Assembly (NCBI RefSeq): GCF_027625995.1
Contig: NZ_CP115396.1
Location: 930,001 to 994,000, forward strand
DNA from: Hymenobacter yonginensis
GTDB taxonomy: Bacteria; Bacteroidota; Bacteroidia; Cytophagales; Hymenobacteraceae
DNA: 64,000 bases
Direction of reading: 5' to 3'
Both the position numbers and the translations under genes were made by a program. Each line of letters starts with the position of its first letter. Positions within the stretch are counted from its first letter, which is position 1. This document shows positions 40,618 through 61,285 of this stretch, piece by piece. The notes beneath the pieces are model-generated. The model saw only the letters and a program-made list of their open reading frames with translations. It was not told where the DNA came from and ran no database searches.

Positions 40618-40645
40618 GGCAACGTTCCCGATAACGATTGCGCAA
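40618..40645 (+). promoter_or_regulatory. Candidate LacI-family operator, copy 1
   Basis: Contains CGTTCCCGATAACG (40623-40636), an imperfect palindrome CGTTnnCGnnAACG with central CpG, typical of LacI-family operators. It lies 155 bp before the ATG of the CE12-GH28 gene. Its 28-bp block is identical, except at two positions, to 46741-46768 in front of kduD, next to the LacI-type regulator gene. Confidence 0.65.
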
Positions 40646-40791
40646 AAAATACAAGAGCCGGATGCGGCCAGCCCCAACTATTCCAGTAACCTTATCAACC
40701 AGTCCGCTGATCTGCCCGGCGGCGGCATCCCGGAAACCTGCTGTTTCATTGGCTGCTGCGCCGTTTCGCCCGCCTACTTTCCCGCCCCGAT

Positions 40792-43128
40792 ATGAAACAC
40801 CTGTGCCTTGCTCTGCTGGCCGTGCTGCTGCTGGCCTTCCGGCCGGCGGACGACCGGAACCCCACCATCTTCCTCGTGGGGGATTCCACCATGTCGGACA
40901 AGCCGCTGGATAAGGCCGAGCGGGGCTGGGGCATGTACTTCCGGCAGTATTTCGATGCGAATGTGGCCGTGCAGAACCACGCCATGAACGGGCGCAGCAC
41001 CCGCAACTTCCGCCACGAAGGCCGCTGGGCCAAGGTGCTGGAGCAGCTCAAGCCCGGCGACTGGGTGTTCATCCAGTTCGGCCACAACGACAGCAAGCAG
41101 GAGGACACCGCCCGCTACGCCGCCCCCCAAACGGCATACCGCCAGAACCTGACCCGCTACGTGCAGGAAGCCCGCGCCAAAGGTGCCAACCCGGTGCTGC
41201 TCACGCCCGTGGGCCGGCGCTACTTCGACGAGGCCGGCAAGCGCAAGGACGACCACGGCGAATACCCCGGCGTGGTGCGCGAGGTAGCCAAAGCTCAGAA
41301 AGTGCCGCTGATTGACGCCCACGAAGCTACCTGGGCCATGTACAGCCAGCTCGGCGACGCAGGCACCAAGCCGTTGTTCTGGAGCTACCAGAACGGGGCC
41401 AACAATACCAAGCTCGATAACACCCACTTCTCGGCCTACGGTGCCGAGCGGGTGGCCCAGCTGGTAGCCCAGGAAGTGAAAAAACAGAACCTCGGTATTG
41501 CCGCGCACCTTAAGCCGCTGGCCTTCGCCGGTAAGTACGCCTACGAGCTGCCCATCGTGCTGCAGCCCACCTTCCGCAAGGATACTTTCAACATCACCAA
41601 GTACGGCGCGGTGGCCGACGGGCAAACGCTCAACACCGAGGCTTTTCGTAAGGCTATTGACGCCTGCAGCCAGCAGGGCGGCGTGGTGCTGGTGCCGCGC
41701 GGCCTCTGGCTCACCGGCCCGATTCAGCTGAAAAGCAACGTGAACCTGCACCTGGCCCAGGGCGCGCTGGTGCAGTTCAGCAACCGGCTTTCTGATTATC
41801 AGCTCATCAAAACCAACTGGGAAGGGGAGGACGCCGTGCGCAACCAGTCGCCCATTTCCGGCTACGACCTCGAAAACATTGCCATTACCGGCCCGGGCAC
41901 CTTCGACGGAGCCGGCGACGCCTGGCGCATGGTGAAGAAGGAAAAGCTCAACCCCGGCCAGTGGCAGCGCCTCGTGAAATCGGGCGGGGTGGTAGACGAG
42001 AAGGGCACCACCTGGTACCCTTCGGCCGGCTCGCTCAAAGGCTCTACCCTCAACAAGCCCTGGACGCTGACCGCCGGTCAGGAGCCCGACTTCAGCAAGT
42101 ACGCCGAGTTCAAGGATTTCCTGCGGCCCAACATGCTTAGCCTGCAGCGCTGCAAACAGATTCTGCTCGAAGACTTCACCATCCAGAACTCCCCCGCCTG
42201 GACCATTCACCCGCTGCTCTGCGACAACATCACGCTGCGCAACGTGACGGCCCGCAACCCCTGGTACGGCCAGAACACCGACGCCCTGGACCTGGAATCC
42301 TGCCGCAACGGCCTGGTGGAAGGCTGCACATTTGACGTGGGCGACGACGGCATCTGTATCAAGAGTGGCCGCGACGCAGAGGGCCGCCGGCGCGGCGTGC
42401 CGACTGAGAACTTCATCATTCGCGACACGAAAGTGTACCACGCCCACGGCGGCTTCGTGATTGGCTCGGAAATGTCGGGCGGGGCGCGCAACCTGTACGT
42501 GAGCAACTGCACCTTCATGGGCACCGACGTGGGCCTGCGCTTCAAGACGGCCCGGGGCCGGGGCGGCGTGGTGGAAAACATCTTTGTGGACGGCGTGGAC
42601 ATGACCGACATTGCCGGCGAGGCCATCCTGTTCGATATGTACTACGCCGCCAAAGACCCCGTGCAGGTGAACGGCGAGGCCTACGGCATCCCCGAAATCA
42701 AGGCCGAGCCGCTGAACGAGGGTACCCCGCAGTTCCGCAACTTCCGCATCACCAACGTGACCTGCAAGGGTGCCAACACCGGCATCCTGGTGCGCGGCCT
42801 GCCCGAAATGGCGGTGCAGAACATCGAAATCGAAAACACGGTACTGGAGTGCAACAAAGGCATGGTGTGCCAGGAAGCCGACGGCATCCGCCTCAAAAAC
42901 GTGACCCTGCTGTCCCAGGAAACCAAGCCCGTGCTGGAAGTCCAGAACAGCCGCAACATCAGCTTCGACAACCTGCGCTACACGCCCGGCGCCGAACTGC
43001 TGCTGCGCGTAACCGGCGCCCGCAGCAAAGCCGTAACCCTGCGCAATACCGACACCAAACCCGCCAAAAAAGGCGTGGAAATGGGGGAGAGGGTGGCCAA
43101 GAAAACGGTGACGGTAAGCAAGCTGTAG
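40792..43128 (+). CDS. Two-domain pectinase: CE12 acetylesterase fused to GH28 polygalacturonase
   Basis: A 778-residue exported enzyme. A hydrophobic N-terminus (1-18) is followed by a rhamnogalacturonan acetylesterase domain (CE12, SGNH fold, about 23-240) with the GDSTMSD nucleophile block (Ser32), the FGHND block and the DNTHFS end (Asp209, His212). The second domain (about 264-740) is a GH28 right-handed beta-helix with motifs NTD (495-497), DVGDDG (Asp518-Asp519), HGGFVIGSE (His552) and the RFK triad (583-585). The fusion couples deacetylation to hydrolysis of galacturonan. It is the first gene of the pectin locus, preceded by a candidate LacI-type operator. No T9SS sorting tail is visible, so it may act in the periplasm. 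Confidence 0.9.
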   Translation: MKHLCLALLAVLLLAFRPADDRNPTIFLVGDSTMSDKPLDKAERGWGMYFRQYFDANVAVQNHAMNGRSTRNFRHEGRWAKVLEQLKPGDWVFIQFGHNDSKQEDTARYAAPQTAYRQNLTRYVQEARAKGANPVLLTPVGRRYFDEAGKRKDDHGEYPGVVREVAKAQKVPLIDAHEATWAMYSQLGDAGTKPLFWSYQNGANNTKLDNTHFSAYGAERVAQLVAQEVKKQNLGIAAHLKPLAFAGKYAYELPIVLQPTFRKDTFNITKYGAVADGQTLNTEAFRKAIDACSQQGGVVLVPRGLWLTGPIQLKSNVNLHLAQGALVQFSNRLSDYQLIKTNWEGEDAVRNQSPISGYDLENIAITGPGTFDGAGDAWRMVKKEKLNPGQWQRLVKSGGVVDEKGTTWYPSAGSLKGSTLNKPWTLTAGQEPDFSKYAEFKDFLRPNMLSLQRCKQILLEDFTIQNSPAWTIHPLLCDNITLRNVTARNPWYGQNTDALDLESCRNGLVEGCTFDVGDDGICIKSGRDAEGRRRGVPTENFIIRDTKVYHAHGGFVIGSEMSGGARNLYVSNCTFMGTDVGLRFKTARGRGGVVENIFVDGVDMTDIAGEAILFDMYYAAKDPVQVNGEAYGIPEIKAEPLNEGTPQFRNFRITNVTCKGANTGILVRGLPEMAVQNIEIENTVLECNKGMVCQEADGIRLKNVTLLSQETKPVLEVQNSRNISFDNLRYTPGAELLLRVTGARSKAVTLRNTDTKPAKKGVEMGERVAKKTVTVSKL

Positions 43129-43130
43129 TC

Positions 43131-43342
43131 GCACCCCACCCCCCGACCCCCTCCCCTCCGGGAGAGGGGGAGCCAGCCGAACGATGTAGAGAAGCGACAC
43201 TTCGCGTCTCCTGCCAGAACGACCGGAGCCGAACCAACCAAACAACATCAGCAACGACGAGACGCGAAGTGTCGCGTCTCTACAACCCGCCCGCGCCGCC
43301 GTGGCTCCCCCTCTCTGAAGGAGAGGGGGCCGGGGGGTGAGG
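43131..43342. repeat. Composite repeat (family E arms around a family A hairpin)
   Basis: Outer arms: a C-rich block (43133-43174, CCCCTCCGGGAGAGGGGGAGCC inside it in shorter pieces) and its G-rich complement (43303-43342). Inner element: family A hairpins (43185-43210 and 43250-43283, GAGACGCGAAGTGTCGCGTC). Two repeat families are nested in one gap between the CE12-GH28 and GH105 genes. Confidence 0.75.
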
Positions 43343-43359
43343 CCCCATCCGCACCATCC

Positions 43360-45288
43360 ATGTCCTTCCGTCCTTTCCTGCTGGCCGGCCTGCTCACGGC
43401 CTCGCTTTCCACCCAGGCACATACCACACCCGCGGCGCGCCCAATGTCGCAGCGCATGGCTGATGCGTTTATCAGCTGGCACCCCGATTCCATCCTTATC
43501 GGCAGCCGCAAAACCGCCCGCTGGGACTACGAGCAGGGCCTGATGCTGAAGGCGCTGGAAAGGGTGTGGCAGCGCACCGGCGACGCCCGCTACTTCACCT
43601 ACATTCAGAAGGACCTCGACCAGTTCGTGCGCCCCGACGGCAGCATCCGCACCTACAAGCTGGACGACTACAACCTCGACAACCTGACTACCGGCCACGC
43701 TTTGCTCACGCTTAGCCAGATGTCGGTGCCCCAGGCCGAGAAGTACCGGCTGGCTGCCCAGCAGCTGCGTAAGCAGCTGGAGGGGCAGCCGCGCACCAAG
43801 GCCGGCGGCTTCTGGCACAAGAAAATCTACACCAACCAGATGTGGCTGGATGGCCTGTACATGGCCGAGCCCTTCTACGCCGAGTACAGCCAGGCCTTCA
43901 ACCAGCCCGCCGGTTTCGACGATGTGGCTAAGCAGTTTGCGCTGATTGAGAAGAACCTCACGGACCCCAAAACCGGCCTGAAATACCACGGCTACGACGA
44001 AAGCCGGGAGCAGCAGTGGGCCAACAAAACCACCGGGCAGTCGGCCAATTTCTGGGACCGGGGCCTGGGCTGGTACGCCATGGCCTTAGTGGACGTGCTG
44101 GATTATTTCCCTCAGAACCACCCGCAGCGACAGCAGCTCATCCAGAATGTGCAGCGCCTCGCACCGGTGCTGGTGAAGTACCAGGATGCCACCGCCGGCA
44201 CCTGGGCGCTGGTGATGGACCAGGCCGCCCGCAAGGGCAATTACCAGGAGGCCTCGGGCAGCAGCATGTTCGTGTATTTCCTGCAAAAGGGTGTGCGCAT
44301 GGGCTACCTCGACAAGAAATACGCCGCCGCCGCCCGCAAGGGGTATGATGGCCTGCTGAGGCAATTCGTGGCCGAGGAAAACGGCGCGCTGGCCTTCAAC
44401 GGCACCGTGAGCGTGGGCGGCCTCGGCGGCAAGCCCTACCGCGACGGCAGCTTCGAGTACTACCTCACCGAGCCGCTGCGCCAGAACGACCTGAAAGGGG
44501 TGGGCCCTTTCATTCTGGCCAGCGTGGAGATGGAAACGGCTGCCAGCGCCGTGGGAACCGGCAAAACCGTGGCCGTGGACAACTACTTCAACCACGAGCT
44601 GCGCAAAAACGCCCTGAGCGGCCAGCCCGAAACCTGGCACTACACCTGGGATGACCGCACCCACGGCGGCTTCTACTTCTGGGGCCAGCAGTTCCGCGAC
44701 CTGGGCGCGAAAACCGCCACCATCAGCACCGCGCCCACGGCCGCCGCGCTTAAAGGCGTCGACGTGTTCATCATCGTGGACCCCGACACCCGCAAGGAAA
44801 CTCCGCAGCCCAACTTCGTGCAGCCCGCCGACGTGCAGGTGCTCACCAAATGGGTAAAGGATGGCGGCACGTTGGTGCTGATGGCCAACGACACCAGCAA
44901 CTGCGAAATCCCGCGCTTCAACACCCTGGCCCGGGCCTTCGGCCTAGAGTTTCTGCCCCTGAACCTGAACATGGTGAAAGGCAGCGAATTTGAGCAGGGC
45001 CGGGTGAATATCCCGGCCGGCAACGCCGTCTTCAAAACCGCAAAATCGGCCTACATCAAGGAGCTAGCCCCGCTGAAAGTGCAGGCCCCGGCCACGCCGC
45101 TGGTGCAGATGGGCGCGCACACCATCATAGCCACCGCCAAAGTGGGCAAGGGCACCGTACTGGCCGTGGGCGACCCGTGGCTGTACAACGAGTACGTGGA
45201 CGGCCGCAAGATTCCCGCCTCGTTCGAGAACTACAACGCCGCCCGCGACTTGGCGACCTGGCTGCTGCAACAGTCCGGCCGCAAGTAG
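43360..45288 (+). CDS. GH105 unsaturated rhamnogalacturonyl hydrolase with C-terminal DUF4350-like domain
   Basis: A 642-residue exported protein. A signal peptide (1-20) is followed by an (alpha/alpha)6-barrel GH105 domain (about 25-400) that removes the unsaturated uronic acid from the non-reducing end of pectin fragments: WDYEQGLMLKALERVWQ, the DDYNLDN substrate loop, and NFWDRGLGWYAMALVDVLDYF (split here: NFWDRGLGWYAM then ALVDVLDYF). From about 420 to the end a second domain of Rossmann/amidotransferase-like type appears (DVFIIVDPD, then GGTLVLMANDTSN, GKGTVLAVGDPWLYNEY), resembling DUF4350. Its role is unknown; it may bind sugar or protein partners. The gene stands between repeat elements in the pectin locus. 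Confidence 0.88.
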   Translation: MSFRPFLLAGLLTASLSTQAHTTPAARPMSQRMADAFISWHPDSILIGSRKTARWDYEQGLMLKALERVWQRTGDARYFTYIQKDLDQFVRPDGSIRTYKLDDYNLDNLTTGHALLTLSQMSVPQAEKYRLAAQQLRKQLEGQPRTKAGGFWHKKIYTNQMWLDGLYMAEPFYAEYSQAFNQPAGFDDVAKQFALIEKNLTDPKTGLKYHGYDESREQQWANKTTGQSANFWDRGLGWYAMALVDVLDYFPQNHPQRQQLIQNVQRLAPVLVKYQDATAGTWALVMDQAARKGNYQEASGSSMFVYFLQKGVRMGYLDKKYAAAARKGYDGLLRQFVAEENGALAFNGTVSVGGLGGKPYRDGSFEYYLTEPLRQNDLKGVGPFILASVEMETAASAVGTGKTVAVDNYFNHELRKNALSGQPETWHYTWDDRTHGGFYFWGQQFRDLGAKTATISTAPTAAALKGVDVFIIVDPDTRKETPQPNFVQPADVQVLTKWVKDGGTLVLMANDTSNCEIPRFNTLARAFGLEFLPLNLNMVKGSEFEQGRVNIPAGNAVFKTAKSAYIKELAPLKVQAPATPLVQMGAHTIIATAKVGKGTVLAVGDPWLYNEYVDGRKIPASFENYNAARDLATWLLQQSGRK

Positions 45289-45347
45289 CGGCGCGCACCC
45301 AGGCCGGCCGTTTGGTGAGTGAGCCGCCAGTCCGGGTGCTGCCGCCC

Positions 45348-45398
45348 GTCATTCCGACCAACCGATGTCCGCAGAGGCCGCCGGCTGGTCGGAATGAC
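45348..45398. repeat. Short family B hairpin
   Basis: Arms GTCATTCCGACCA (45348-45360) and TGGTCGGAATGAC (45386-45398), perfect 13-bp stem. A reduced relative of the family B elements, between the convergent GH105 and LacI-type genes. Confidence 0.7.
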
Positions 45399-45439
45399 AG
45401 TTTTTGGCCTTATCTGCGGCGCAGTGCAAACCCGTCGAT

Positions 45440-45516
45440 TATCCTGAAAAGCAAAAGACCTTATTCCGTTAGCAAGTCGTATCAACGGCTCGTGCCAACG
45501 GGGCAAGGTCCTTCGT
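45440..45516 (-). terminator. Candidate terminator of the LacI-type gene
   Basis: An imperfect inverted repeat (AAGACCTTATTCCGTTAGCA pairing loosely with TGCCAACGGGGCAAGGTCCT) is followed on the minus strand by TTTTGCTTTTC. It lies about 40-110 bases beyond the regulator stop. Confidence 0.4.
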
Positions 45517-45557
45517 CCTCGCTTGAAGCGCGAAATACTTGGGCTGACAGCGCCGGT

Positions 45558-46586
45558 TTACAGCTTCACCGCTTCCAGCCGCGTGGAGCTGCGTACCACC
45601 AACTCGGTGGGAATGCGCACGGTTTCGATGGGGAGGGCGCGGTGCTTGCGCTCAATCTGGTCGATGAGGCGCTCGGCGGCCAGCTGGCCGATTTCCTGGG
45701 CGGGCTGCACCACGGTGCTTAGGGGCGGGTCCAGCAGGTCGGCCACGTTGAGGTTAGTGAAGCCGATGAGCGACACGTCGTCGGGGATGTGCAGGTTGCG
45801 CTGGCGCAGGGCCTGCAGGCAGCCCACGGCCAGACGGTCGGAGGCCGTGAAGAAGGCATCGGGCGGCGAGCCGAGGTGCATGAGCTCGTCCACCATCGGG
45901 CCTACCTCGTCAGGGCCGAAGGTGCCGTAACGAATCAGCGCTTCGTCGAATTCTAGGCCGTTTTGCTCTAGGGCGGCACGGTAGCCCGCCAGCCGCTCCT
46001 GCGTGATGCTGAGCCAGGGCTGAATGGTGAGGTGGGCAATGCGCCGCCGTCCGCTCCGGATCAGGTGCTCGGTGGCGGCAAAGGCCCCGCCGAAGTTATC
46101 GGCCACCACTTTCGTTACGTTCAGCTCGCTGGAAACCCGGTCGAACAGCACCAGCGGTACGTTTTTGTCGAGTACGTCCTGCAGGTGCGTCACGTCGGAG
46201 GTTTCGCTCGACAAGGACATCAGCAAACCATCTACCTTGCGCGACATGGCCTGCTGCACGTTGGCCATTTCCCGTTCGTAGCTTTCCTGGCTCTGGAAGA
46301 TGATGACGTGGTAGCCGCGGTTGTAGGCAATGGCCTCGATGCCGTTGATGGCCTGCGAGAAAAAGTAGTTGGCCACCTGGGGCAGAATCACGCCGATGGC
46401 GCGGCTGGCGCTGCCCTTCAGGCTGAGCGCAATGGGGTTGGGGCGGTAGTTGAGCCGCTCGGCGCACTCCATCACCAGCCGCTTGGTTTCGGGGTTGATT
46501 TCGTAGCTGCCCCGCAGGGCCCGCGACACCGTGGAAGTGGAAAGTCCCAGCTCCCGGGCAATGTCTTTGATGGTGTAGGTTTCCAA
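45558..46586 (-). CDS. LacI-family transcriptional regulator of the pectin locus
   Basis: A 342-residue DNA-binding repressor or activator with a sugar-binding core. The LacI helix-turn-helix is at the start: TYTIKDIARELGLSTSTVSR, then the hinge NPIALSLKGSASRAIGV. The periplasmic-binding-like core follows (VILPQVANYFFSQAINGIEA, DGLLMSLSSETSD, PDAFFTASDRLAVG). The family N-terminus begins at a TTG codon (46586); an ATG further upstream at 46694 would add 36 unlike residues. It lies inside the pectin locus, divergent from kduD, so it most likely controls that locus. The nearby block 46741-46768 carries a central-CpG palindrome that recurs before the CE12-GH28 gene. The effector is probably a KDG-pathway intermediate, which is inference. 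Confidence 0.9.
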   Translation of the reverse strand: METYTIKDIARELGLSTSTVSRALRGSYEINPETKRLVMECAERLNYRPNPIALSLKGSASRAIGVILPQVANYFFSQAINGIEAIAYNRGYHVIIFQSQESYEREMANVQQAMSRKVDGLLMSLSSETSDVTHLQDVLDKNVPLVLFDRVSSELNVTKVVADNFGGAFAATEHLIRSGRRRIAHLTIQPWLSITQERLAGYRAALEQNGLEFDEALIRYGTFGPDEVGPMVDELMHLGSPPDAFFTASDRLAVGCLQALRQRNLHIPDDVSLIGFTNLNVADLLDPPLSTVVQPAQEIGQLAAERLIDQIERKHRALPIETVRIPTELVVRSSTRLEAVKL

Positions 46587-46893
46587 CGGATTAAGGAAAA
46601 AAGAAGCGGTGGAAATGGCGCGGCTGTCTAAAGTACAACACCGCACCGCAATCAGGCAAGGCCGCTTGAGAAGCTGAAAGTAGTGACCCCTCACTGATTC
46701 TCAACAGTAGCGCCGTTGAGTAGGTGCCAAATCGGCAACTGGCAACGTTCCCGACAACGATTGCGCGAATAAACATTCGCATATTTTTCCGTTTGGCGCA
46801 AGCAAGCATTAACCTTATTGACGGCTAATCACCTCCCGCAGGTTGCTTGCCGAATGGTCTTCTTCAAATAGTGTACAAACCTCTGCCTGCAGT
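46587..46893. other. Divergent regulator/kduD promoter region
   Basis: About 300 bases, AT-richer than the coding parts, with the candidate operator at 46741-46768 and the run ATATTTTTCCG near 46790 that could hold a -7 box. I see no gene in it. Confidence 0.5.
46741..46768 (+). promoter_or_regulatory. Candidate LacI-family operator, copy 2
   Basis: Contains CGTTCCCGACAACG (46746-46759), the same palindrome form (CGTTnnCGnnAACG) as 40623-40636. It lies about 155 bp from the TTG start of the LacI-type gene and about 126 bp before the kduD ATG, between the two. The whole 28-bp block differs from copy 1 at only two positions. Confidence 0.65.
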
Positions 46894-47664
46894 ATGTCAT
46901 TTGCCACCGCCTTTGATTTAAACGGTAAACTGGCTCTGGTAACCGGCTGCAACCGGGGTATCGGGCAGGCCATGGCGCTGGGCCTGGCCGAAGCCGGGGC
47001 CGATATCATCGGCGTATCGGCCACGCTGGCGCTGGAGGGCTCCGACACGGCACGGCAGGTGCAGGCTTTGGGCCGGCAGTTTCACGCGTACCAGGCCGAT
47101 TTCAGCAGCCGCGCCGCCGTGGATGCCTTTCTGGAAAAGGTGCAGCGTGATTTCCCACGCATCGACATCCTGATCAACAACGCCGGCATCATCCGGCGCG
47201 CCCCCGCCGCCGAGCACTCCGACGCCGACTGGGACAACGTCCTGTCCATCAACCTTGATGCCCCATTCCGGCTGGCGCGGGCTATTGGGGGCCGGATGCT
47301 GGCGCAGGGCTCGGGCAAGATCATCTTCACGGCCTCGTTGCTCACGTTTCAGGGCGGCATCAACGTGCCGGGCTACGCGGCCAGCAAGGGCGCTATTGGC
47401 TCACTGGTGAAGGCGCTGGCCAACGAGTGGGCGGGCCGCGGCGTGAACGTGAATGCCATTGCCCCCGGCTACATCGCCACCGACAACACCGAGGCGCTGC
47501 GCCAGGACCCCGAGCGCAGCAGCAGCATCCTGGGCCGCATTCCGGCCGGCCGCTGGGGCCAGCCCGAGGACTTCAAAGGCCCGACCGTCTTTCTCGCTTC
47601 CGAAGCCGCCAGCTACGTCCACGGCACCATCCTCACCGTGGATGGCGGCTGGATGGGACGCTGA
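46894..47664 (+). CDS. kduD: 2-dehydro-3-deoxy-D-gluconate 5-dehydrogenase KduD
   Basis: Short-chain dehydrogenase that reduces 2,5-diketo-3-deoxygluconate (DKII) to 2-keto-3-deoxygluconate in the cytoplasm, the last step of the unsaturated-uronate branch. The 256-residue protein has the NAD motif VTGCNRGIG (16-24), NNAG (95-98) and the catalytic Ser148, Tyr161 and Lys165 (FTASL; PGYAASKGA). The C-terminal VDGGWMGR end is typical of the KduD group. The ATG at 46894 is preferred to a start at 46843, which adds residues unlike the family. It starts the operon that runs through kduI to the susC/susD genes, and the candidate operator lies in its upstream region. Confidence 0.92.
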   Translation: MSFATAFDLNGKLALVTGCNRGIGQAMALGLAEAGADIIGVSATLALEGSDTARQVQALGRQFHAYQADFSSRAAVDAFLEKVQRDFPRIDILINNAGIIRRAPAAEHSDADWDNVLSINLDAPFRLARAIGGRMLAQGSGKIIFTASLLTFQGGINVPGYAASKGAIGSLVKALANEWAGRGVNVNAIAPGYIATDNTEALRQDPERSSSILGRIPAGRWGQPEDFKGPTVFLASEAASYVHGTILTVDGGWMGR

Positions 47665-47811: not shown

Positions 47812-48642
47812 ATGCGTCAGTATTACGCCATCGGCCCGCGCGAAACAGCGGCAATGAACACTGCCGAGCTGCGGGAGAATTTCCTGCTCGAAAACCTGTT
47901 CGTGGCCGGTGATATTCAGCTGGTGTACACCCACTACGACCGAATGATGGTGGGCGGCGTGGTGCCCACGGCTGCGCCCATTGCGCTGCCGAATCCCGCC
48001 AATCTGAAAGCCGACTTCTTTTTGCAGCGCCGCGAGCTGGGCATCCTCAATATTGGGGCGGCCGGCACCGTGACGGTAGACGGCACCGCCTACGAGCTGG
48101 GCCGCCAGGATTGCCTGTACGTAGGCAAGGACGCCCGGGAAGTGGTTTTTGCCAGCTCTGACGCGGCTGCGCCGGCCAAGTTCTACCTGCTTTCCACGCC
48201 GGCCCACGCCAGCCACCCCACCACCCGCCTCACGCAGGCCGAGGCCACGCCCGTGACCATGGGTACGCTGGAAACCGCCAATCAGCGCACGATTTACAAG
48301 TACATCTACTCCGAAGGCATCCAGAGCTGCCAGCTGGTGATGGGCCTCACGCAGCTGCACGCCGGCAGCGTCTGGAACACCATGCCCGCCCACACCCACG
48401 ACCGGCGCATGGAAGCCTACCTCTACTTCGACCTGGCCGAGGGCCAACGCGTGCTGCACCTCATGGGCCAGCCCCAGGAAACCCGCCACTTGTGGGTGGG
48501 CGAGGGGCAGGCCATTCTTTCCCCGCCATGGTCCATTCACTCGGGCTGCGGCACGGCCGGCTACACCTTCATCTGGGGGATGGGCGGCGAAAACCAGGAA
48601 TACACCGACATGGACCCCGTGGCCATTCCGGATTTGCGCTAG
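47812..48642 (+). CDS. kduI: 5-dehydro-4-deoxy-D-glucuronate isomerase KduI
   Basis: Zinc-dependent cupin isomerase that converts 5-keto-4-deoxyuronate (DKI) to 2,5-diketo-3-deoxygluconate (DKII), the step before KduD. The 276-residue protein has the metal ligands at the same numbers as in the E. coli enzyme: His194, His196 and Glu201 in AHTHDRRMEAYLYFD, and His243 in PPWSIHSGCG. The N-terminal REPEAT-like half (TAELRENFLLENLF, then VYTHYDRMMVGG) matches too. It follows kduD directly across a hairpin-filled gap and precedes susC by 60 bases, so it belongs to the same pectin operon. Confidence 0.95.
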   Translation: MRQYYAIGPRETAAMNTAELRENFLLENLFVAGDIQLVYTHYDRMMVGGVVPTAAPIALPNPANLKADFFLQRRELGILNIGAAGTVTVDGTAYELGRQDCLYVGKDAREVVFASSDAAAPAKFYLLSTPAHASHPTTRLTQAEATPVTMGTLETANQRTIYKYIYSEGIQSCQLVMGLTQLHAGSVWNTMPAHTHDRRMEAYLYFDLAEGQRVLHLMGQPQETRHLWVGEGQAILSPPWSIHSGCGTAGYTFIWGMGGENQEYTDMDPVAIPDLR

Positions 48643-48702: not shown

Positions 48703-51700
48703 ATGAAAAGAAATTTACTGTTGCTCGCACCGCTCATGGTGTGCGCAGTGGCTCCCGCCTGGGCGCAGCAGCGCCGGGTGCAGGGGGTTGTGAAATCGGA
48801 CAAGGGCGAAGGCCTGCCCGGCGTGACAGTAGTAGTGAAAGGCACCACCAACGGCGCCTCCACCGACGGTGACGGCCGCTTCACTATCTCGCTGCCGGCC
48901 GGCGGCAACCCCACGCTCAGCATCAGCTACATCGGCTACGTGGCGCAGGAAGTGGTGGTGGGCGACCGGACCGATGTGAGCATCACGCTGCGCGAAGACA
49001 GCAAGGTGCTGGAAGACGTGGTGGTAATTGGCTACCAGGAAGTGCAGCGCCGCGACGTAACGGGCTCCGTCTCGTCGGTGGGCGCGCAGCAGATCAAGGA
49101 CGTGCCGGTGAACTCCGCCGCCGAGGCCCTGACTGGCCGCCTGGCCGGCGTGCAGCTCACCTCCGCCGAAGGCACGCCCGGCAACGCCAACGTGCAGATC
49201 CGGGTGCGCGGTGGCGGCTCCATCACCCAGGACAACTCGCCGCTGTACGTGGTGGACGGGATTCAGGTGGAAAACGCCCTAAGCGTGATTTCGCCCCAGG
49301 ACATTGCCTCCGTCGATGTGCTCAAGGATGCTTCGGCGACGGCCATCTACGGGGCCCGCGGCGCCAACGGCGTGGTGATTATCACCACCAAAAAGGGCCG
49401 CGAGGGCAAGGTGGTGGTGAGCTACAACGGCTTTGCCGGCTTCCGCCGCCTGGCCAACAAGCTCGACCTGATGAAGCCCGCTGATTATGTGGACTACCAG
49501 TTCGAGCGCGCGCAGTCCATCGGCACGGCGGCCGGCGGCATCAACACGTTCAAGACAGCGTTCGGCAGCAAAAACTTCCTGTCGGATACGCTCAACGCTA
49601 GCCGCAACGCCCCGTTCCTCGACTGGCAGGACCAGGTGTTCGGGCGCGACGCTTTCCAGCAAACCCACAACCTGTCGGTGGCGGGTGGCGCCAAGGGCAC
49701 CACGTACTCGCTGAGCCTCACCGACAACCAGGAGGAAGGCATTCAGAAGGGCTCCGACTACGACCGGAAGCTGGTGAATTTCCGCTTCGACACGAAAGCC
49801 ACCGAAAAGCTCACCATCGGGCTGAACGTGCGCTTCAACAACCAGAAGATCAACGGCTCGGGCACGTCCAGCTCGCTGTCTACCGTCACGTCGCGGCTGC
49901 GCAACGCGGTGCAGTTTCAGCCGCTGGCCGTGCCGCTGGCCGGCGCCCTCGACCCCAACCAGTTCGATGAGGATTTCTTCCAGCAGTCGAGCCTGGTGAA
50001 CCCCATCATTGCCATCGACAACGAGTACCGCCTGGACCGCCGCCGCACCACCAACATCAGCGGCAACGTGGGTTTGACGATTCTGCCCAACCTGATTTTC
50101 CGCTCGACGGCGGGCTTCGACATCACCGATTCCAAGCTCGAAACCTTCAACGGCCGCTATTCGCCCACCATCCGGCAGCAAGCCGGCAACTACGCCGCCC
50201 TGCCGTTTGCCTCGGTGAGCTCGGGCACGCTCACCACCATCAACAACTCCAACGTGCTGAGCTACTCCTTCTCGAAGGGCGTGCACAGCGTGGACGCGCT
50301 GGTGGGCCAGGAGATTTACCAGCAGAACAGCACCACGCAGTACATCCAAACCAACTTCCTGCCGCTGGATATCACCTCGCGCCAAGCGCTGGCCAACATC
50401 AACCAGGGCGTGCTGCCAGCCGGCACCGTGGCCCAGCCGATTCTGCCCACCACCAGCGTGCCGATCAACGCGCGTCTGCTCTCGGGCTTCAGCCGCCTCA
50501 ACTATACCTTCGCCGACAAGTACCTGTTCACGGCCACGTTCCGGGCCGATGGCTCGTCGAAGTACGCCGCCGGCAACCGGGTGGGCTATTTCCCGGCTGC
50601 CTCGCTGGCCTGGCGCGTGTCGCAGGAGAACTTCCTGAAGTCGATAACCGCTATTTCCGACCTGAAGCTGCGTTTGAGCTACGGCCTGGCCGGCAACAAC
50701 CGCATCAACGACTTTGCCTTCCGGCAGCTGTTTTCGGGCGGCGGCGGCGAGTACTGGCTGAACCACATCCGGGTGGGCGGCGCGGCCGTGCCGTTTCTGG
50801 CCAACGAAAACCTGAAGTGGGAAACCACGGTGTCGCGCAACCTGGGTATGGACCTGGCGCTGTTCAGCAACCGGGTGCAGTTCACGGCCGACGCCTACTA
50901 CAACACCACCCGCGACCTGCTCGTGAACGTGCCGATTCCGGTGGTGGTGGGCTACGCCTCGCAGCTGCAGAACATCGGCTCGACCAGCAACCGCGGCCTG
51001 GAGCTGCAGCTGAGCGGCACGGTGCTCCAGACGCCCGACTTCACCTGGACCGCCAACGTGAATACGTCCTTCAACCGGGGCAAGATTGAGAGCCTGGGCG
51101 GCGCGCCCAACATTCCGGGCGTGTACTCGGGCTGGGCCAGCACGGCCATCTCGCAGGACTTCGTGGCCCGCGTCGGCGACCCTATCGGGCTGATGTATGG
51201 CTACGTGACCGATGGTTTCTACACCCCCGACGACTTCGAGAGCTACAATGCCACCACCCGCACCGGCACGCTGAAAGCCGGTATTGCCTCCAATGCCGGG
51301 GTGCAGGGCCAGCCGGTGATGCCGGGCATCATCAAGCTGAAAGACCTGAACGGCGACGGGGTGGTGAATGACCTCGACCGCACGGTTATCGGCAATGCCA
51401 ACCCCAAGTTCACGGGCGGCTTCAACCAGCAGTTTGCTTACAAGGGCTTTGATGCCAGCGTGTTCCTGAACTTCGTGTACGGCAACGACATCTACAACGC
51501 CAACAAGATTGAGTTCACCTCGGCCGTGAATCCGCTCAGCAACATGCTGGACATCACCTCCGACCGGTACCGCACCATCGACGCCAACGGCGCCCCCATT
51601 ACCACCCTCGACGGCTTCCGCCAGGCCAACCCCGATGCCAAGCTCTGGCAGCCCACGCGCCAGCTGTTCACGCACTCCTGGGCTATCGAAGACGGCTCGT

Positions 51701-51939
51701 TTCTGCGGGTCAATAACGTGACGCTGGGCTACTCGCTGCCGAAAGAGCTCATCAGCCGGGCCAAGCTCACGCAGGTGCGCTTCTACGTGACGGGCAACAA
51801 CCTCTACACGTTCACGAAATACACCGGCTACGACCCCGAGGCCAACACCCGCCGTGCCACCGGCCTCACACCCGGCGTCGACTACGCCGCCTACCCGCGC
51901 AGCCGTGCCCTGCTGTTCGGCATCAACCTGGGACTGTAA
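48703..51939 (+). CDS. SusC-like TonB-dependent outer membrane transporter
   Basis: A 1078-residue outer membrane barrel that imports oligosaccharides with energy from TonB, together with its SusD partner encoded next. A signal peptide (1-22) is followed by a carboxypeptidase-like regulatory domain (about 24-105: VQGVVKSDKGEGLPGVTVVV), a plug domain (about 115-230, VPVNSAAEALTGRLAGVQL, then the SusC box LYVVDGIQVEN) and the barrel, ending with an aromatic C-terminal strand (RALLFGINLGL). Its place in the pectin locus points to pectin-derived oligogalacturonides as the substrate, which is inference from context. The ATG at 48703 gives the signal peptide. Confidence 0.95.
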   Translation: MKRNLLLLAPLMVCAVAPAWAQQRRVQGVVKSDKGEGLPGVTVVVKGTTNGASTDGDGRFTISLPAGGNPTLSISYIGYVAQEVVVGDRTDVSITLREDSKVLEDVVVIGYQEVQRRDVTGSVSSVGAQQIKDVPVNSAAEALTGRLAGVQLTSAEGTPGNANVQIRVRGGGSITQDNSPLYVVDGIQVENALSVISPQDIASVDVLKDASATAIYGARGANGVVIITTKKGREGKVVVSYNGFAGFRRLANKLDLMKPADYVDYQFERAQSIGTAAGGINTFKTAFGSKNFLSDTLNASRNAPFLDWQDQVFGRDAFQQTHNLSVAGGAKGTTYSLSLTDNQEEGIQKGSDYDRKLVNFRFDTKATEKLTIGLNVRFNNQKINGSGTSSSLSTVTSRLRNAVQFQPLAVPLAGALDPNQFDEDFFQQSSLVNPIIAIDNEYRLDRRRTTNISGNVGLTILPNLIFRSTAGFDITDSKLETFNGRYSPTIRQQAGNYAALPFASVSSGTLTTINNSNVLSYSFSKGVHSVDALVGQEIYQQNSTTQYIQTNFLPLDITSRQALANINQGVLPAGTVAQPILPTTSVPINARLLSGFSRLNYTFADKYLFTATFRADGSSKYAAGNRVGYFPAASLAWRVSQENFLKSITAISDLKLRLSYGLAGNNRINDFAFRQLFSGGGGEYWLNHIRVGGAAVPFLANENLKWETTVSRNLGMDLALFSNRVQFTADAYYNTTRDLLVNVPIPVVVGYASQLQNIGSTSNRGLELQLSGTVLQTPDFTWTANVNTSFNRGKIESLGGAPNIPGVYSGWASTAISQDFVARVGDPIGLMYGYVTDGFYTPDDFESYNATTRTGTLKAGIASNAGVQGQPVMPGIIKLKDLNGDGVVNDLDRTVIGNANPKFTGGFNQQFAYKGFDASVFLNFVYGNDIYNANKIEFTSAVNPLSNMLDITSDRYRTIDANGAPITTLDGFRQANPDAKLWQPTRQLFTHSWAIEDGSFLRVNNVTLGYSLPKELISRAKLTQVRFYVTGNNLYTFTKYTGYDPEANTRRATGLTPGVDYAAYPRSRALLFGINLGL

Positions 51940-51958
51940 ATTTTAGTGAGTAGGAAAT

Positions 51959-52034
51959 GGGGCTTAGGGCTTGGGTCGCTGCGGCGGCAAAGCAAGAACA
52001 TCCTAAGCCTCAGGCCCTGAGTCCTAAGCCCTAA
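51959..52034. repeat. Family G imperfect hairpin (GGCTTAGGGCTT)
   Basis: Left arm GGGGCTTAGGGCTTGGGTC (51959-51977) and right arm GAGTCCTAAGCCCTAAC (to 52034) are largely complementary, with a middle CCTAAGCCTCAGG block. It lies in the susC-susD gap. Confidence 0.6.
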
Positions 52035-52045
52035 CTTCTGACATC

Positions 52046-53842
52046 ATGAAACCTGCCTTTTTTCGTTCTACCCTCAGTGCCGCGGCCCTGACCCTGCTCC
52101 TCGGAATAGGAGGCTGCAAAGACTATCTGGAAGCCGATCCGGACGCCTACTACACCACCGAGCAGATCTTCAGCTCGGTGAGCGGCGCCACCACGGCCGT
52201 CATCACGGCCTACGACCTGCTGTCCGGCGACCGGACCTACGGCACCCGCCTCAACCTGTACTACCCCTACGACACCGACGAGCTGATTGGGGCGCCCGGC
52301 GCCGCCAACGCCGGCAACCGCGGCCTGTCGCGCTACAAAGCCCAGCCCACCAACCCCGAGATTGTAAACCCCTGGGGCGACCTGTACTCGGGCGTGGAGA
52401 AGGCCAACATCTGCATCAAGAACATCCCGCAGATGGCGCTCTACCGCAACGGCACCGCCGCCGACACCGCCGCCCTGCACCGCCTGCACGGCGAGGCCCT
52501 CACGCTGCGTGCCCAGTATCTGTACGAACTGATCCGCAACTGGGGCGACGTGCCGGCCCCGCTCACGCCCACCGATCCGTCGAAGAGCTTCCAGCTGCCC
52601 TCCGTGGACCGCAACGTGACGCTAGATACGCTGATTGCCAACCTGGGCAAGGCCCAGAAGCTGGTGCCTTGGCGCTCCAAGGCCGGGGCAGTGAATGAGC
52701 GCATCACCAAAGGCGCCGTGAAAGCTTTGCGCGCCCGCCTAGCCCTGCAACGCGGCGGTTACTCGGCCAATGCCACCACCGGCCAGATTACGCGCCCTGC
52801 CGACTACCTGACTTACTACCGCATTGCCCAGGTGGAGTGCGCCGAGCTGATGCGCAACCGCGGCGAGCACACGCTCAACACCAGCTTCTACGACCTGTTC
52901 AAGAGCTTCAATGAGCAGCGCCGCGAAAGCGCCAACGAGGTGATATTTGAAGTAGCCATGGGCGGCAGCAGCGCCACCGCCGACAGCAAGCTGGGCTACT
53001 ACGACGGCCCCCGCCTGAACACGTCGCCGATTTTCGGCTCGTCGCAGGGCTCGATTGTGGCCGTGCCGACCTACTTCTACGCCTTCGACTCCACGGACGT
53101 GCGCCGCGACATCACGCTGACGCCCTACACCATCGGGAGCAACAACAACCAGGCGGGCACCTCGCTGGCCGTCATCACCACCGGCAAGTTCCGCCGCGAC
53201 TGGCGCGTGCCGGCGCTGCCCGGCTCCGGCAACTACCTCGGCTACAACTGGCCCCTCATCCGCTTCGCCGACGTGCTGCTGATGTTTGCCGAGGCCGAAA
53301 ACGAGCTGAACGGTCCTACTTCGGCGGCCCGCACGGCGCTGCTGGAAGTGCGCACCCGCGGCTTCGGCGGCAACGCCACCCGCGCCGCGGCCGGCCTCGA
53401 CCTTTCGTCGAAAGACGCTTTCTTCACGGCCCTCAAAAAAGAGCGCCTGCTGGAGTTTGGCGGCGAAGGCATCCGCAAGTACGACCTGCTGCGCTGGGGG
53501 CAGCTGGCCAGCCAACTGGCTGCCACCAAGGCTGAGCTGGCCAAGATGCAGTTGGCCCAGGCGCCCTACAACACGGTGCCGCAATACATGTACTTCAGGG
53601 TGGTGAACACCCAGGTGCAGTGGGCCCGCTCGTTCTACCGGCCTTCGCCGGCCGCCACGCCCAGCGGCACCACCCGCGTCGACTGGCGGCAGGCCATTAC
53701 GGCCGCCTACATCACCAACACTCGCCCCGGCGGCACGGGCTTGGCTGCCGACTTCGAGCCCGGCAAAGGCAAAGAGCTGATGCCGATTCCGCAGAGCACG
53801 CTCGACACCGACCCCAACGTGAAGCAGAACTTCGGCTACTAA
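52046..53842 (+). CDS. SusD/RagB-like outer-membrane carbohydrate-binding lipoprotein
   Basis: A 598-residue surface lipoprotein that forms the lid of the SusC barrel and captures oligosaccharides. The signal peptide ends in the lipobox GIGGC (Cys24). The family N-terminus (KDYLEADPDAYYTTEQIFSS, 20 residues) and the later TPR-like helices (around 95-250, ALTLRAQYLYELIRNWGDVP) and the C-terminal RFADVLLMFAEAEN and ERLLEFGGEGIRKYDLLRWG motifs are all typical of SusD. It follows susC at 106 bases across a hairpin repeat and precedes the kdgF-like gene by 13 bases. Substrate inference as for its partner. Confidence 0.95.
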   Translation: MKPAFFRSTLSAAALTLLLGIGGCKDYLEADPDAYYTTEQIFSSVSGATTAVITAYDLLSGDRTYGTRLNLYYPYDTDELIGAPGAANAGNRGLSRYKAQPTNPEIVNPWGDLYSGVEKANICIKNIPQMALYRNGTAADTAALHRLHGEALTLRAQYLYELIRNWGDVPAPLTPTDPSKSFQLPSVDRNVTLDTLIANLGKAQKLVPWRSKAGAVNERITKGAVKALRARLALQRGGYSANATTGQITRPADYLTYYRIAQVECAELMRNRGEHTLNTSFYDLFKSFNEQRRESANEVIFEVAMGGSSATADSKLGYYDGPRLNTSPIFGSSQGSIVAVPTYFYAFDSTDVRRDITLTPYTIGSNNNQAGTSLAVITTGKFRRDWRVPALPGSGNYLGYNWPLIRFADVLLMFAEAENELNGPTSAARTALLEVRTRGFGGNATRAAAGLDLSSKDAFFTALKKERLLEFGGEGIRKYDLLRWGQLASQLAATKAELAKMQLAQAPYNTVPQYMYFRVVNTQVQWARSFYRPSPAATPSGTTRVDWRQAITAAYITNTRPGGTGLAADFEPGKGKELMPIPQSTLDTDPNVKQNFGY

Positions 53843-53855
53843 CCGCCCCGCCACC

Positions 53856-54194
53856 ATGCTTCCCGCCGCCGACTACTTTCTGGAAGACGATGCCCAACCC
53901 TGGGAAACCGTGGGTGAGGGCGTGCGCCGCAAGGTGCTCACCTACGACCCGCAGCTGATGCTGGTGCGGGTGGAGTTTGCGGCGGGAAGCATCGGGGCGC
54001 CGCACCGGCACGTGCACACCCAGATGACCCACGTGGTCAGTGGAGTGTTCGAGGCCACCGTGGGCGGCCGGATGCAGGTGCTGCGGGCCGGCGACACGTT
54101 TCATGCGCCGTCGGAGGTGGTGCATGGGGTGGTGTGCGTGGAGGCTGGGGTGCTGCTTGATGCCTTCAGCCCCATGCGCGAGGATTTTGTGTAG
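53856..54194 (+). CDS. kdgF: KdgF-like cupin for unsaturated galacturonate
   Basis: A 112-residue single-domain cupin. The metal-binding cupin motif is PHRHVHTQMTHVVSGVFEAT (about 46-65) with the second motif AGDTFHAPSEVVHGVVCVEAG, and the end LLDAFSPMREDF matches the KdgF family closely. KdgF speeds the ring opening of 4,5-unsaturated uronates released by GH105 or lyases into the keto form (DKI) that KduI takes. The gene lies between susD and the CE8-PL10 gene with gaps of 13 and 23 bases, so it is surely in the same operon. Its presence completes the lyase branch of the pathway. Confidence 0.9.
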   Translation: MLPAADYFLEDDAQPWETVGEGVRRKVLTYDPQLMLVRVEFAAGSIGAPHRHVHTQMTHVVSGVFEATVGGRMQVLRAGDTFHAPSEVVHGVVCVEAGVLLDAFSPMREDFV

Positions 54195-54217
54195 GCCTGC
54201 GGGCGCCAATCCAACTT

Positions 54218-56356
54218 ATGAAACTACTGACAACACTACTGCTTCTGCTGACTGGAATAGGGGGGATGGGGATCTTTACTGCCCAGGCCCAGCAGATTAC
54301 GGTGGCGGCGGATGGTTCGGGCCAGTTCCGGACCATCCAGGCCGCCATCAACAGCCTGCCCGACCAGGCCAGCCAGCCGCGCACGGTGTACATCAAAAAC
54401 GGCACCTACAAGGAGAAAGTGCGGCTCGACAACAAGCAGCGCGTCATCCTGAAAGGCCAGAGTGAAAAGGGCGTGGTGCTGACTTACGCCCAGTCGCGCG
54501 ATGCGTGGCGCTGCGACCCGGTGGGCGGCGCCGACGACTGGGGCGTGGCCACGCTCAACATGCGCAACTCGCCCGACGTTACGCTCGAGAACCTCACCGT
54601 CATCAACTCCTATGGCTTCGACCACCGCGGCGAGCCCGACGTGGTGCTGCCCTGCCCCGCTGACCCCAGCGGCCAGAAGAAAATCAGTGCCACCGGCCAC
54701 CAGATGGCCCTGCGCACCATGCCCGGCACCACCCGCCTCACGGTGAAGCACTGCACGTTCCGCTCGCTGAACGGCGACACCGTGAGCCCCTGGGACGTGG
54801 ACGCCGGCCTCTACTATTTCAAGGACTGCACCATGGAAGGCGGGGTGGATTTCTACTGCCCCCGCGGCTGGGCCTACGCCGAAAACTGCCGCTTCATCTG
54901 CCACAATATGTCGGCCGCCATCTGGCACGACGGTTCGGGCAATCAGGAGTCGAAAACGGTGCTGAAAAACTGCGTGTTCGAGGGCGACGACAACTTCAAG
55001 CTCGGGCGCTACCACCGCGAGGCGCAGTTCTACCTGATCAACTGCAAATTCCCGCAGAACATGGCCGACGCCGACATCTACTGGGCCCAGTCGGGGCCCG
55101 GGACCAAGCAGTGGGGGCGGCGCGTGTACTACCAGAACTGCCACCGCAAAGGCGGCGACTACGCCTGGCACCAGGACAACCTGAGCACGGCCGCCGGCGC
55201 CCCTAAGCCCGCCCAGATTACCGCCGACTGGACCTTTGGCGGGCGTTGGTACCCGGTGTCGGGCAAAGCCGCTACGGTAGCCGTGCCCGTCTACGACCCC
55301 ACCGCCAAAGACCGGTACTCGGCAGTGCCGACTGCCCCGGCTGCGGTGGCGCCGGCTGCAACCCCGGCCCTCGATTCGGTGGCCGAGCGGATGCTGGTGT
55401 ATCAGCGCACGGTGGGCGGCTGGCCCAAGGCAGTAGGGGAGGTGAAAGTGAAGTACGACCAGCCTATGAGTGTTACTGCCATTGCTGCCACCCGCGACGA
55501 CGCCGGCCGCAACGATGCCACCATCGACAACGACGCCACCACCCGCGAAATCCGCTACCTGGCCGGCGCCTACGCTGCCACCCGCAACCCCTCCTACAAA
55601 GCCGCCGCTGAAAAAGGTGTGCGCTACCTGCTGCAGATGCAGTACCCCAACGGCGGCTTCCCGCAATTCTACCCCGACCTGAGCAGCTACCGCCACCAGA
55701 TTACCTACAACGACAACGCCATGGTGAAGGCCCTGCAGGTGCTGCGCGACGTGAGCCGCCGCACCCACGGCCTGGAGGTGCTGGATGCCAGCCTCGCGGA
55801 GCCCGCCACCCAGGCCGTGACCCGCGGCATCGACTGCATCCTGAAAACCCAGTACGTGCAGCGCGGCAAGCTTACGGCCTGGTGCGCCCAGTACGACGAA
55901 AAGACACTGCAGCCGGCCAAGGCCCGCGCCTTCGAGCTGGCCTCACTCAGCGGGATGGAAACTGTGGGCATCGTGCAGTTTCTGCTGGATACCGACAACC
56001 CCACGCCCGCCATCCGGCAGGCGGTGGAAGCGGCAGTAGCGTGGCTGCGGGCCGTGCAGCTGACTGGCTACACGGTGCAGGACCGGCCCGACCCGAAACA
56101 GCCCAAGGGCTACGACCGGGTGCTGGTGCCGCAGCCCGGCGCCGTCATCTGGGCCCGCTTCTACGACCTCACCACCAACCAGCCCATCTACGTGGGGCGC
56201 GACTCCAAGCCCCGCGCCACGCTGGCCGAAATCGAATACGAGCGCCGCACGGGCTATGCCTACGCCGGTACCTGGCCCGAAAAGCTGCTCAGCCGCGACT
56301 ATCCGCGCTGGCAGCAAAAATGGAATGCTACTGCCCCGCAGGGCAGCATTAAATAA
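54218..56356 (+). CDS. Two-domain pectinase: CE8 pectin methylesterase fused to PL10 pectate lyase
   Basis: A 712-residue exported enzyme. Signal peptide 1-24. CE8 domain (about 25-345): right-handed beta-helix with QITVAADGSGQFRTIQAAIN, QMALR, DAGLYYFKDC and the GVDFYCPRG block. A Pro/Ala linker (about 372-382) leads to the PL10 domain (about 386-705) with the family motifs GGWPKAVGEVKV, IDNDATTREIRYLA, QYPNGGFPQFYPD, ITYNDNAMVKALQVLRD and GAVIWARFYDLTTN. Removing methyl esters prepares the chain for beta-elimination by the lyase in the same molecule, giving unsaturated oligogalacturonides. It is flanked by kdgF and uxaB with very short gaps. Confidence 0.92.
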   Translation: MKLLTTLLLLLTGIGGMGIFTAQAQQITVAADGSGQFRTIQAAINSLPDQASQPRTVYIKNGTYKEKVRLDNKQRVILKGQSEKGVVLTYAQSRDAWRCDPVGGADDWGVATLNMRNSPDVTLENLTVINSYGFDHRGEPDVVLPCPADPSGQKKISATGHQMALRTMPGTTRLTVKHCTFRSLNGDTVSPWDVDAGLYYFKDCTMEGGVDFYCPRGWAYAENCRFICHNMSAAIWHDGSGNQESKTVLKNCVFEGDDNFKLGRYHREAQFYLINCKFPQNMADADIYWAQSGPGTKQWGRRVYYQNCHRKGGDYAWHQDNLSTAAGAPKPAQITADWTFGGRWYPVSGKAATVAVPVYDPTAKDRYSAVPTAPAAVAPAATPALDSVAERMLVYQRTVGGWPKAVGEVKVKYDQPMSVTAIAATRDDAGRNDATIDNDATTREIRYLAGAYAATRNPSYKAAAEKGVRYLLQMQYPNGGFPQFYPDLSSYRHQITYNDNAMVKALQVLRDVSRRTHGLEVLDASLAEPATQAVTRGIDCILKTQYVQRGKLTAWCAQYDEKTLQPAKARAFELASLSGMETVGIVQFLLDTDNPTPAIRQAVEAAVAWLRAVQLTGYTVQDRPDPKQPKGYDRVLVPQPGAVIWARFYDLTTNQPIYVGRDSKPRATLAEIEYERRTGYAYAGTWPEKLLSRDYPRWQQKWNATAPQGSIK

Positions 56357-56367
56357 CGGTTTTCATC

Positions 56368-57894: not shown

Positions 57895-57986
57895 AGACGC
57901 AACACTGCGCGCCGCCTCGTTGAACGGCAACTGATGAATGACCCTGAACGGCGCGGGCGACGAGACGCGAAGTGTCGCGTCTCTAC
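57891..57986. repeat. Family A hairpin element at the end of uxaB
   Basis: Left end GTAGAGACGCAACAC (57891) and right end GACGAGACGCGAAGTGTCGC-GTCTCTAC (to 57986). The uxaB stop TAG is part of the left end, so the repeat lies directly on the gene end. Confidence 0.75.
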
Positions 57987-58008
57987 GACGTTCTTATTGA
58001 CCTCGAAT

Positions 58009-59664: not shown

Positions 59665-59678
59665 GCTAATTTCTATCT

Positions 59679-59773: not shown

Positions 59774-59794
59774 AAGAGTATAAAAATCCCACCC

Positions 59795-61273: not shown

Positions 61274-61285
61274 AAAACCTCGCCT

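Follow-up and report, generated by a model that had tools for sequence, protein, structure and literature searches.

The pectin locus and its repeated block

We describe here a regulatory element in a 64,000-nucleotide stretch of the Hymenobacter yonginensis genome (NCBI RefSeq assembly GCF_027625995.1, contig NZ_CP115396.1, positions 930,001 to 994,000 of the forward strand; hereafter the window, numbered from its first letter), where a 28-bp block stands before two pectin-use units on either side of a gene for a LacI-family regulator. Comparison with relatives supports the prediction that the block is the operator of this adjacent protein and controls both units. Taking the evidence as a whole, we are inclined, by a modest preference, to the reading that this pectin regulator would be an activator working on a double operator with its promoter at a fixed distance.

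The block occupies 40618-40645 (GGCAACGTTCCCGATAACGATTGCGCAA) and 46741-46768 (GGCAACGTTCCCGACAACGATTGCGCGA). By direct reading 2 of the 28 bases differ, which is exactly the pair of copies that a preliminary description of the locus had reported at these positions. The second copy does lie between lacI and kduD, as that description had it, but the 155 bp that it gave from the first copy to the CE12-GH28 gene must be corrected: the gene begins at 40792, which is 174 bp from where the first block starts, and it is the second block that starts 155 bp upstream of the probable lacI start.

The first unit opens with a GDSL esterase fused to GH28 (P0002; 40792..43128, + strand; Pfam PF13472 and PF00295), whose esterase part we take to be of CE12 type. 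The next gene on the same strand, presumably in the same unit, encodes an unsaturated uronyl hydrolase of GH88/GH105 type (P0003; 43360..45288, +; PF07470). The regulator gene (P0001 from residue 37) runs at 45558..46586 on the minus strand, most likely from a TTG at 46586, as the first aligned residue is V, L or M in all 80 relatives in a protein alignment, which compares residues rather than codons. Its product carries a LacI helix-turn-helix (PF00356, 51.2 bits against a cut-off of 27) and a periplasmic-binding-protein-like effector domain (PF13377, 133 bits against 26.5), and matches the CcpA, ribose repressor and PurR structures by sequence. None of 19 listed families of named NCBIfam equivalogs (RbsR, CytR, CcpA, PurR, GntR and others) reaches its cut-off; the best is RbsR (NF047341), at 220 bits against 382.

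The second unit begins with kduD (46894..47664, +, start ATG 46894; NCBIfam TIGR01832 above cut-off) and kduI (47812..48642, +; NF002091 above cut-off), and the rest of the same-strand run (48703..63219, +) encodes SusC, a SusD-like protein, a CE8-PL10 fusion, tagaturonate reductase, a dehydratase of altronate/galactarate type, UxaC, a PfkB-type (KdgK-like) kinase and an aldolase of 2-keto-3-deoxy-6-phosphogluconate type. The names of the dehydratase, kinase and aldolase rest on matches below NCBIfam cut-offs or on Pfam alone, and the genes of this run presumably form one operon. The fusion protein (P0008, 54218-56356) joins a pectinesterase-like domain to a pectic acid lyase domain that we take to be PL10.

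Within the window the block is confined to its two places. The 14-mer CGTTCCCGAYAACG has 2 perfect matches, and the 26-base form of the block has no third copy, the next-best place differing at 9 of 26 bases, so that the earlier statement that the block occurs nowhere else in the window holds. At up to 3 mismatches the 14-mer gives 20 matches, where shuffled sequence averages 10.5 (highest of 100 shuffles, 18), a modest, nominal excess in which most of the matches are scattered and uninformative. None of 3 Markov shuffles of the window contained a 28-mer pair with at most 2 mismatches. The window nevertheless holds other repeated 28-mers, 46 overlapping pairs in total, and repetition alone therefore proves little. 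Positions taken from 40 of these pairs place near-identical repeats of at least 28 bases, unrelated to the operator, at 9885-9996, 39502-39616 and 24962-24996, at 22633 with 23441, and at 43253 with 57956. Such repeats are what might suggest that the block itself is a dispersed repeat without regulatory role. As neither repetition nor the loose 14-mer excess is informative, conservation in relatives was examined, and it is there that the functional evidence for the block lies.

Conservation, co-occurrence and target genes

When GTDB genomes were scanned with the LacI protein, 93 relatives were found, and the best 80 of their loci, at 57-97% identity, were retained; loci and genomes are cited below by our L and G numbers where needed. 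Searching the 430 bases upstream of lacI for the 26-base block form at up to 5 mismatches, in the 80 relatives and the window, we found the block in 78 of 81 loci, and these matches, with both strands scanned, face away from lacI. They range over Hymenobacter, Spirosoma, Rudanella, Dyadobacter, Runella, Flectobacillus and metagenome-assembled genomes labelled Saprospiraceae and Bacteroidota.

A scan of 392 genomes of the phylum added 14 regulator matches at 51-86% identity. The site, followed by an A-rich tract described below, is present in L203, L204, L207, L208, L210, L211, L212 and L213 (the distal half being degenerate in L210), a partial site without the tract in L214 and L215, and no trustworthy site was found within the 420 bases examined in L205, L206, L209 and L216. 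Even the deeper relatives, at 51-58% identity (L208, L211, L212 and L213, with the distally degenerate L210), keep the operator with its A tract, and a TA box follows at column 69 or 70 from the block start. Judged by this conservation, the block is a deeply conserved functional site in Hymenobacter and its relatives.

The preliminary description had proposed scanning related genomes for the motif, and across 292 genomes of the order the motif tracks the orthologue of the regulator (at least 57% identity, E 1e-95 or better). The exact motif CGTTNCCGRNAWCGWTTGC gave 285 matches in 76 genomes, against 1 match for the pattern read backwards in all 292, and is present in 66 of 69 genomes with the orthologue and in 10 of 223 without it (Fisher 1e-50, a P value inflated by shared ancestry, although the direction is clear). 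When one mismatch was allowed in 20 chosen genomes, the motif was found in 20 of 20, with 159 matches. A dispersed repeat would hardly keep one place beside lacI across genera, co-occur with the regulator, or so far outnumber its reversed pattern, and we consider this explanation so improbable that it may be set aside.

A more serious possibility is that the sites are common to several LacI paralogues with near-identical operators, the protein at 45558-46586 being one reader among them. Paralogues of 41-47% identity do have similar sites beside their own genes, their recognition helices are much alike, and one of them (L258) adjoins kduI with the site GCAAACGCTTGC GGTAACGATTGC. The 10 genomes with the exact motif and no detected orthologue point the same way, only one of which, G063, proved to carry an orthologue, split over two frames (L202; pieces 78% and 83% identical) by decay or by assembly error. 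Yet the 69 genomes with the orthologue hold 266 exact sites, whereas the 223 without it hold 19, of which 6 are in G063; and 8 of 9 checked motif-bearing genomes without the orthologue, G063 apart, do have other LacI relatives (G299 had none at 1e-50), which counts against the sharing of sites. We regard it as quite unlikely.

Targets were collected from the window, from the loci of the 80 relatives and from a further 60 fetched regions, with sites from 14 of the 20 genomes and thus partial sampling. Of the 178 exact sites found there, 77 adjoin lacI and 101 do not; with near-copies removed these came to 27 and 90. The first downstream genes of the 90 were labelled by best similarity to window proteins or representatives, in some cases at about 30% identity. 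On these labels 52 of the 90 precede pectin enzymes (25 CE12-GH28 or CE12, 16 pectate lyases and 11 CE8), 17 precede SusC and 7 a GntR-type regulator. The remaining first genes are 2 MocA-type oxidoreductases, 1 UxaB, 2 permeases, 1 ECF (extracytoplasmic function) sigma factor and 1 protein beside a LacI paralogue, presumably of DUF1080 type, together with three others named by reading (an adhesin-like protein, a secreted-looking protein of 330 residues and an acyl-CoA dehydrogenase); 4 sites have no labelled gene. Many copies far from any sugar-use gene would have spoken against a common regulator, but 76 of the 90 precede pectin-enzyme, SusC or GntR/rhamnose-type genes. The preliminary prediction that one regulator serves both units is in this way well supported, by the lacI-side sites, by the co-occurrence and by the targets.

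Two labels were revised in this survey: the first one for the L144 site, counted above with the CE12 genes, came from a wrong frame and its neighbour is CE12-like, while 'GH105' for the minus strand of L167 was a naming collision, the gene encoding by reading a permease-like protein of 307 residues. Eleven of the pectate lyases share a representative that, at 1e-8, matches nothing in Pfam but matches PDB 9buj, a pectate lyase, at 6.7e-66; first genes resembling it are found at L111, L116, L124, L125, L129, L131, L133, L134, L140 (two sites) and L149. The GntR-type cases (L119, L130, L139, L148, L154, L162 and L164), four of which have a large neighbour with a KduD-like part, presumably mark a rhamnose locus, which suggests a cascade from pectin to rhamnose, although the GntR-type protein is only perhaps a regulator of rhamnose use. 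The operator also lies near an ECF-sigma-like gene in L168 (by Pfam) and in L266 (at 25% identity only).

Promoter geometry and operator architecture

With the block start as column 0, information in the 90 non-lacI sites is largely limited to columns -1 to 25 (the operator), 26-32 (the A tract, RAAWAAA), a trace at 45-48, and 69-76 (TAAnYTTA). At least 6 of 7 bases are A or T in 84 of the 90 sites at columns 26-32, against 3 at columns 33-39, 19 at columns 40-46 and 14 on the mirror side, and the trace amounts to TTG at columns 46-48 in 21. A -7 matrix trained on the 27 de-duplicated lacI-side sites found its best match at columns 67-71 in 44 of the 90, where chance would give 5.9. That 44 unrelated promoters have the box at one distance is a further point against a dispersed repeat.

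The two copies in the window follow the same layout, sharing only 5 of 36 spacer bases and yet carrying TAACCTTAT at the same distance. Before the CE12-GH28 gene a double LacI-type operator, GGCAACGTTCCC and GATAACGATTGC with predicted centres 12 bp apart, would occupy 40618..40641 (+; columns 0-23 of the conserved element). Directly downstream is the A-rich tract AAAAAAT (40644..40650, +), and a predicted -7 box, TAACCTTA, stands 69 bp from the block start (40687..40694, +), with a predicted transcription start near 40699. On the kduD side the corresponding features are the putative operator GGCAACGTTCCC and GACAACGATTGC (46741..46764, +), the tract GAATAAA (46767..46773, +), the -33 position at 46786..46789 (+; TTTC in the window and TTTG in the Dyadobacter, Runella and Flectobacillus rows) and the predicted -7 box TAACCTTA, again 69 bp from the block start (46810..46817, +), with a start predicted near 46822.

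The functional element would then be longer than the block: an operator of 24-26 bp, a 7-bp A-rich tract downstream of it, and a promoter of Bacteroidota type with its -7 box 69 bp away from the operator start. The preliminary description had seen a 14-bp palindrome. Its symmetry is present, with a central CpG, but the conserved unit is instead a 26-bp element with an A-rich tract and a -7 box at what would be a fixed distance. As in the LacI/GalR family generally, a palindromic operator with central CpG lies near the regulator gene; CpG occurs at columns 5-6, 11-12 and 17-18, each of them a possible centre.

Published Bacteroidota promoters carry TTTG at -33 and TAnnTTTG at -7 (PMC7366714), and the -7 box spans -12 to -5 (PMC9723704). 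With the box so placed, the predicted start falls near column 81, so that the operator would extend from about -81 to -58, followed by the A tract from about -55 to -49. The operator would thus belong to the downstream promoter, itself predicted, and lie near -70, where activators bind. An overlap of a repressor site with the -33 box, with the TTGC end of the operator serving as -33, was considered and rejected, the alignment placing the -33/-7 pair further downstream. Conservation almost disappears upstream of the block, on the side of lacI, and the element faces kduD and GH28 rather than lacI, so that the earlier suggestion of an action at lacI's own promoter finds no support.

Activators need a fixed position upstream of a promoter, while the sites of repressors tend to overlap the promoter and to differ in their placement; an UP element would lie where the A tract lies. 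Because the operator would hold a fixed upstream place and the A tract is one-sided, we read the regulator as probably an activator. Bound upstream, it would keep the C-terminal domain of the RNA polymerase alpha subunit on the A tract and recruit polymerase in the manner of class I activators, with a pectin breakdown product (2-keto-3-deoxygluconate, galacturonate or similar) as the likely signal. The -33 box is weak or absent at most sites, which fits an activated promoter, although this point is soft.

Against activation stands a LacI-type repressor of the classical kind, bound to a single long palindrome with CCGA/CCGG at its centre, from which a pectin sugar would release repression, the A tract and the spacing belonging to the promoter. 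Most named LacI-family members in PMC4052901 repress, and a central CpG is the rule in the family's motifs (section 9 there). Such a repressor, however, would act from an operator with about 22 bp between its end and the -33 position downstream, and neither the single -7 distance at 44 of the 90 sites, which is more than a repressor needs, nor the strong asymmetry of the A tract is expected of it. The conserved bases moreover reach 12 bp to either side of the palindrome centre, past the contact range of 7 bp to either side of an operator centre given in the same section of PMC4052901. We therefore judge classical repression rather unlikely.

The span of conservation leads us to the operator itself. 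Read as one palindrome, CGTTnnCGnnAACG has its centre at column 11.5; read as two 12-bp operators, the site would have centres at 5.5 and 17.5, and the conserved span of -1 to 24 reaches just 7 bp to either side of these. The symmetry of CGTTnnCGnnAACG may be the junction of two adjacent LacI operators. On this view the operator would be composed of abutting 12-bp sites, the half-sites GRNAWC and GTTNCC followed by GRNAWC and GWTTGC, on which two dimers would sit side by side with centres 12 bp apart. In the loosely found lacI-side set little or no variation is seen at C1, A3 and G6 in any of the four half-sites. In L201, L252 and L254, beside a lacI paralogue in each case, the promoter-proximal 12-bp site and the A tract stand without a distal unit, which a single long palindrome does not foresee; L252 and L254 were selected by a search for just this combination, while L201 was unselected and is without a clear -7 box. 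The distal unit is GCAAACGTTTGC in L263 and GCAAACGCTTGC in L258, and, judged by eye, single GCAAWCGWTTGC-type sites occur with some further paralogues whose recognition helix is largely the same. We consider two 12-bp sites rather the better description of the operator.

A promoter-proximal half-operator with A tract was also seen just after uxaA in two relatives, at L246/L247 (one site) and L253; in the window no match to such a half-operator and tract after uxaA was found at up to 4 mismatches.

Several observations weigh against an activator on a doubled operator, and some of them favour the repressor. The best -7 match lies outside columns 67-71 in 46 of the 90 sites. The scanning pattern fixes many operator columns, and the invariance of the non-lacI set is thus partly imposed, only the lacI-side set having been found loosely. 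Even there columns 7, 10, 13, 21 and 22 are equally invariant and are left unexplained by the half-site. Pair counts for symmetry favour neither reading, with 8.0 of 12 for the single long palindrome and 8.4 of 12 for two operators, and the paralogues L179, L180 and L181 have near-perfect 24-bp palindromes centred at column 11.5, as the repressor would have it. A search for the proximal unit gave 97 matches in 14 genomes and none in the reversed control; among the part of these sites that was read, those without mismatch keep the distal unit and only single-mismatch ones are without it, so that the distal half is rarely dispensable. An upstream operator is also compatible with some mechanisms of repression. 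Since no -33 motif was identifiable in Flavobacterium johnsoniae (PMC7366714), a weak -33 box need not mean dependence on an activator and may be normal outside Bacteroides. Finally, the lacI-side site is missing in L054, L072 and L078, 3 of the 69 orthologue-bearing genomes are without the exact motif, and with one mismatch allowed the reversed pattern still gave 12 matches in the 20 genomes against the 159.

The paralogues might allow the activator reading to be extended. A tree of 52 LacI rows, a non-random sample with midpoint rooting only, splits 31 against 21 with support 100/99. The group of 31, with the window regulator, its orthologues and paralogues such as L166, L183, L184, L191, L252 and L254, has the double operator with A tract in 22. 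The group of 21 has it in 2 (L258 and L263, which had been picked by an A-tract search), with 6 double operators without A tract, 1 single and 12 unclassified. On the tree this label is clustered without forming one clade (9 changes against a shuffled mean of 17.5, with 0 of 500 shuffles as low). When the full architecture was sought in 20 regions (those of 19 LacI paralogues and the G063 orthologue) 7 matches were found against 2.7 expected, of which only L183 and L184, with TA boxes at columns 69-70 by reading, are convincing. Inspection by eye under looser criteria brought in L191, together with regions that have no site at all. We tentatively speculate, and would not press it, that a Bacteroidota LacI clade (31 of the 52 sampled rows, including the window regulator) could consist of activators on doubled 12-bp operators, with two dimers 12 bp apart, an A tract docking the polymerase alpha C-terminal domain and a fixed -7 distance, classical repression belonging to the other paralogue group, where the A tract is rare.

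Relation to known systems

A limited literature search found no published account of a layout combining double operator, A tract and -7 box. The base-by-base promoter layout proposed here (double operator, A tract, -33 and -7) for a pectin regulon across several Bacteroidota families would permit direct prediction of the regulon. If its geometry does mean activation, a textbook repressor family would have a lineage of dedicated activators. CcpA is a LacI-family protein able to activate; it and Cra/FruR act at single operators in variable positions, and we know of no A tract of this kind for either. Both are from other phyla than the window regulator, and for Cra/FruR the ability to activate is recorded in PMC4052901.

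At the level of the promoter, the -7 box TAAnYTTA and the TTG trace at -33, at about the expected distance, resemble those described for Bacteroidota (PMC7366714, PMC9723704), from which the present promoters differ in the box variant TAACCTTA and in their weak or absent -33. Pairs of LacI-family sites at a distance of about 13 bp have been recorded, for example those of GntR at gntKU, where tetramer binding is hard to square with structures (PMC4052901, section 9). The present sites would likewise be two of LacI type about one helical turn apart, but with a spacing of 12 bp, and the doubled site would here be the rule of a regulon and go together with an A tract and a -7 box. If two dimers do bind at this distance, the regulon would lend itself to testing how LacI sites so close together are bound, a question that PMC4052901 leaves open.

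The nearest counterparts by description, rather than by sequence or motif, are the predicted Bacteroides regulators KdgR (BT0487), UxaR (BT0824) and UxuR (BT1434), which are also LacI-family proteins of Bacteroidota linked to the catabolism of glucuronate, galacturonate and 2-keto-3-deoxygluconate (PMC3878776, PMC4052901). The text of these accounts covered here mentions neither a fixed distance from operator to promoter nor activation. In B. thetaiotaomicron the loci for rhamnogalacturonan breakdown are assigned to hybrid two-component system (HTCS) regulators, whereas at the locus described here genes for breakdown and for catabolism share one operator.

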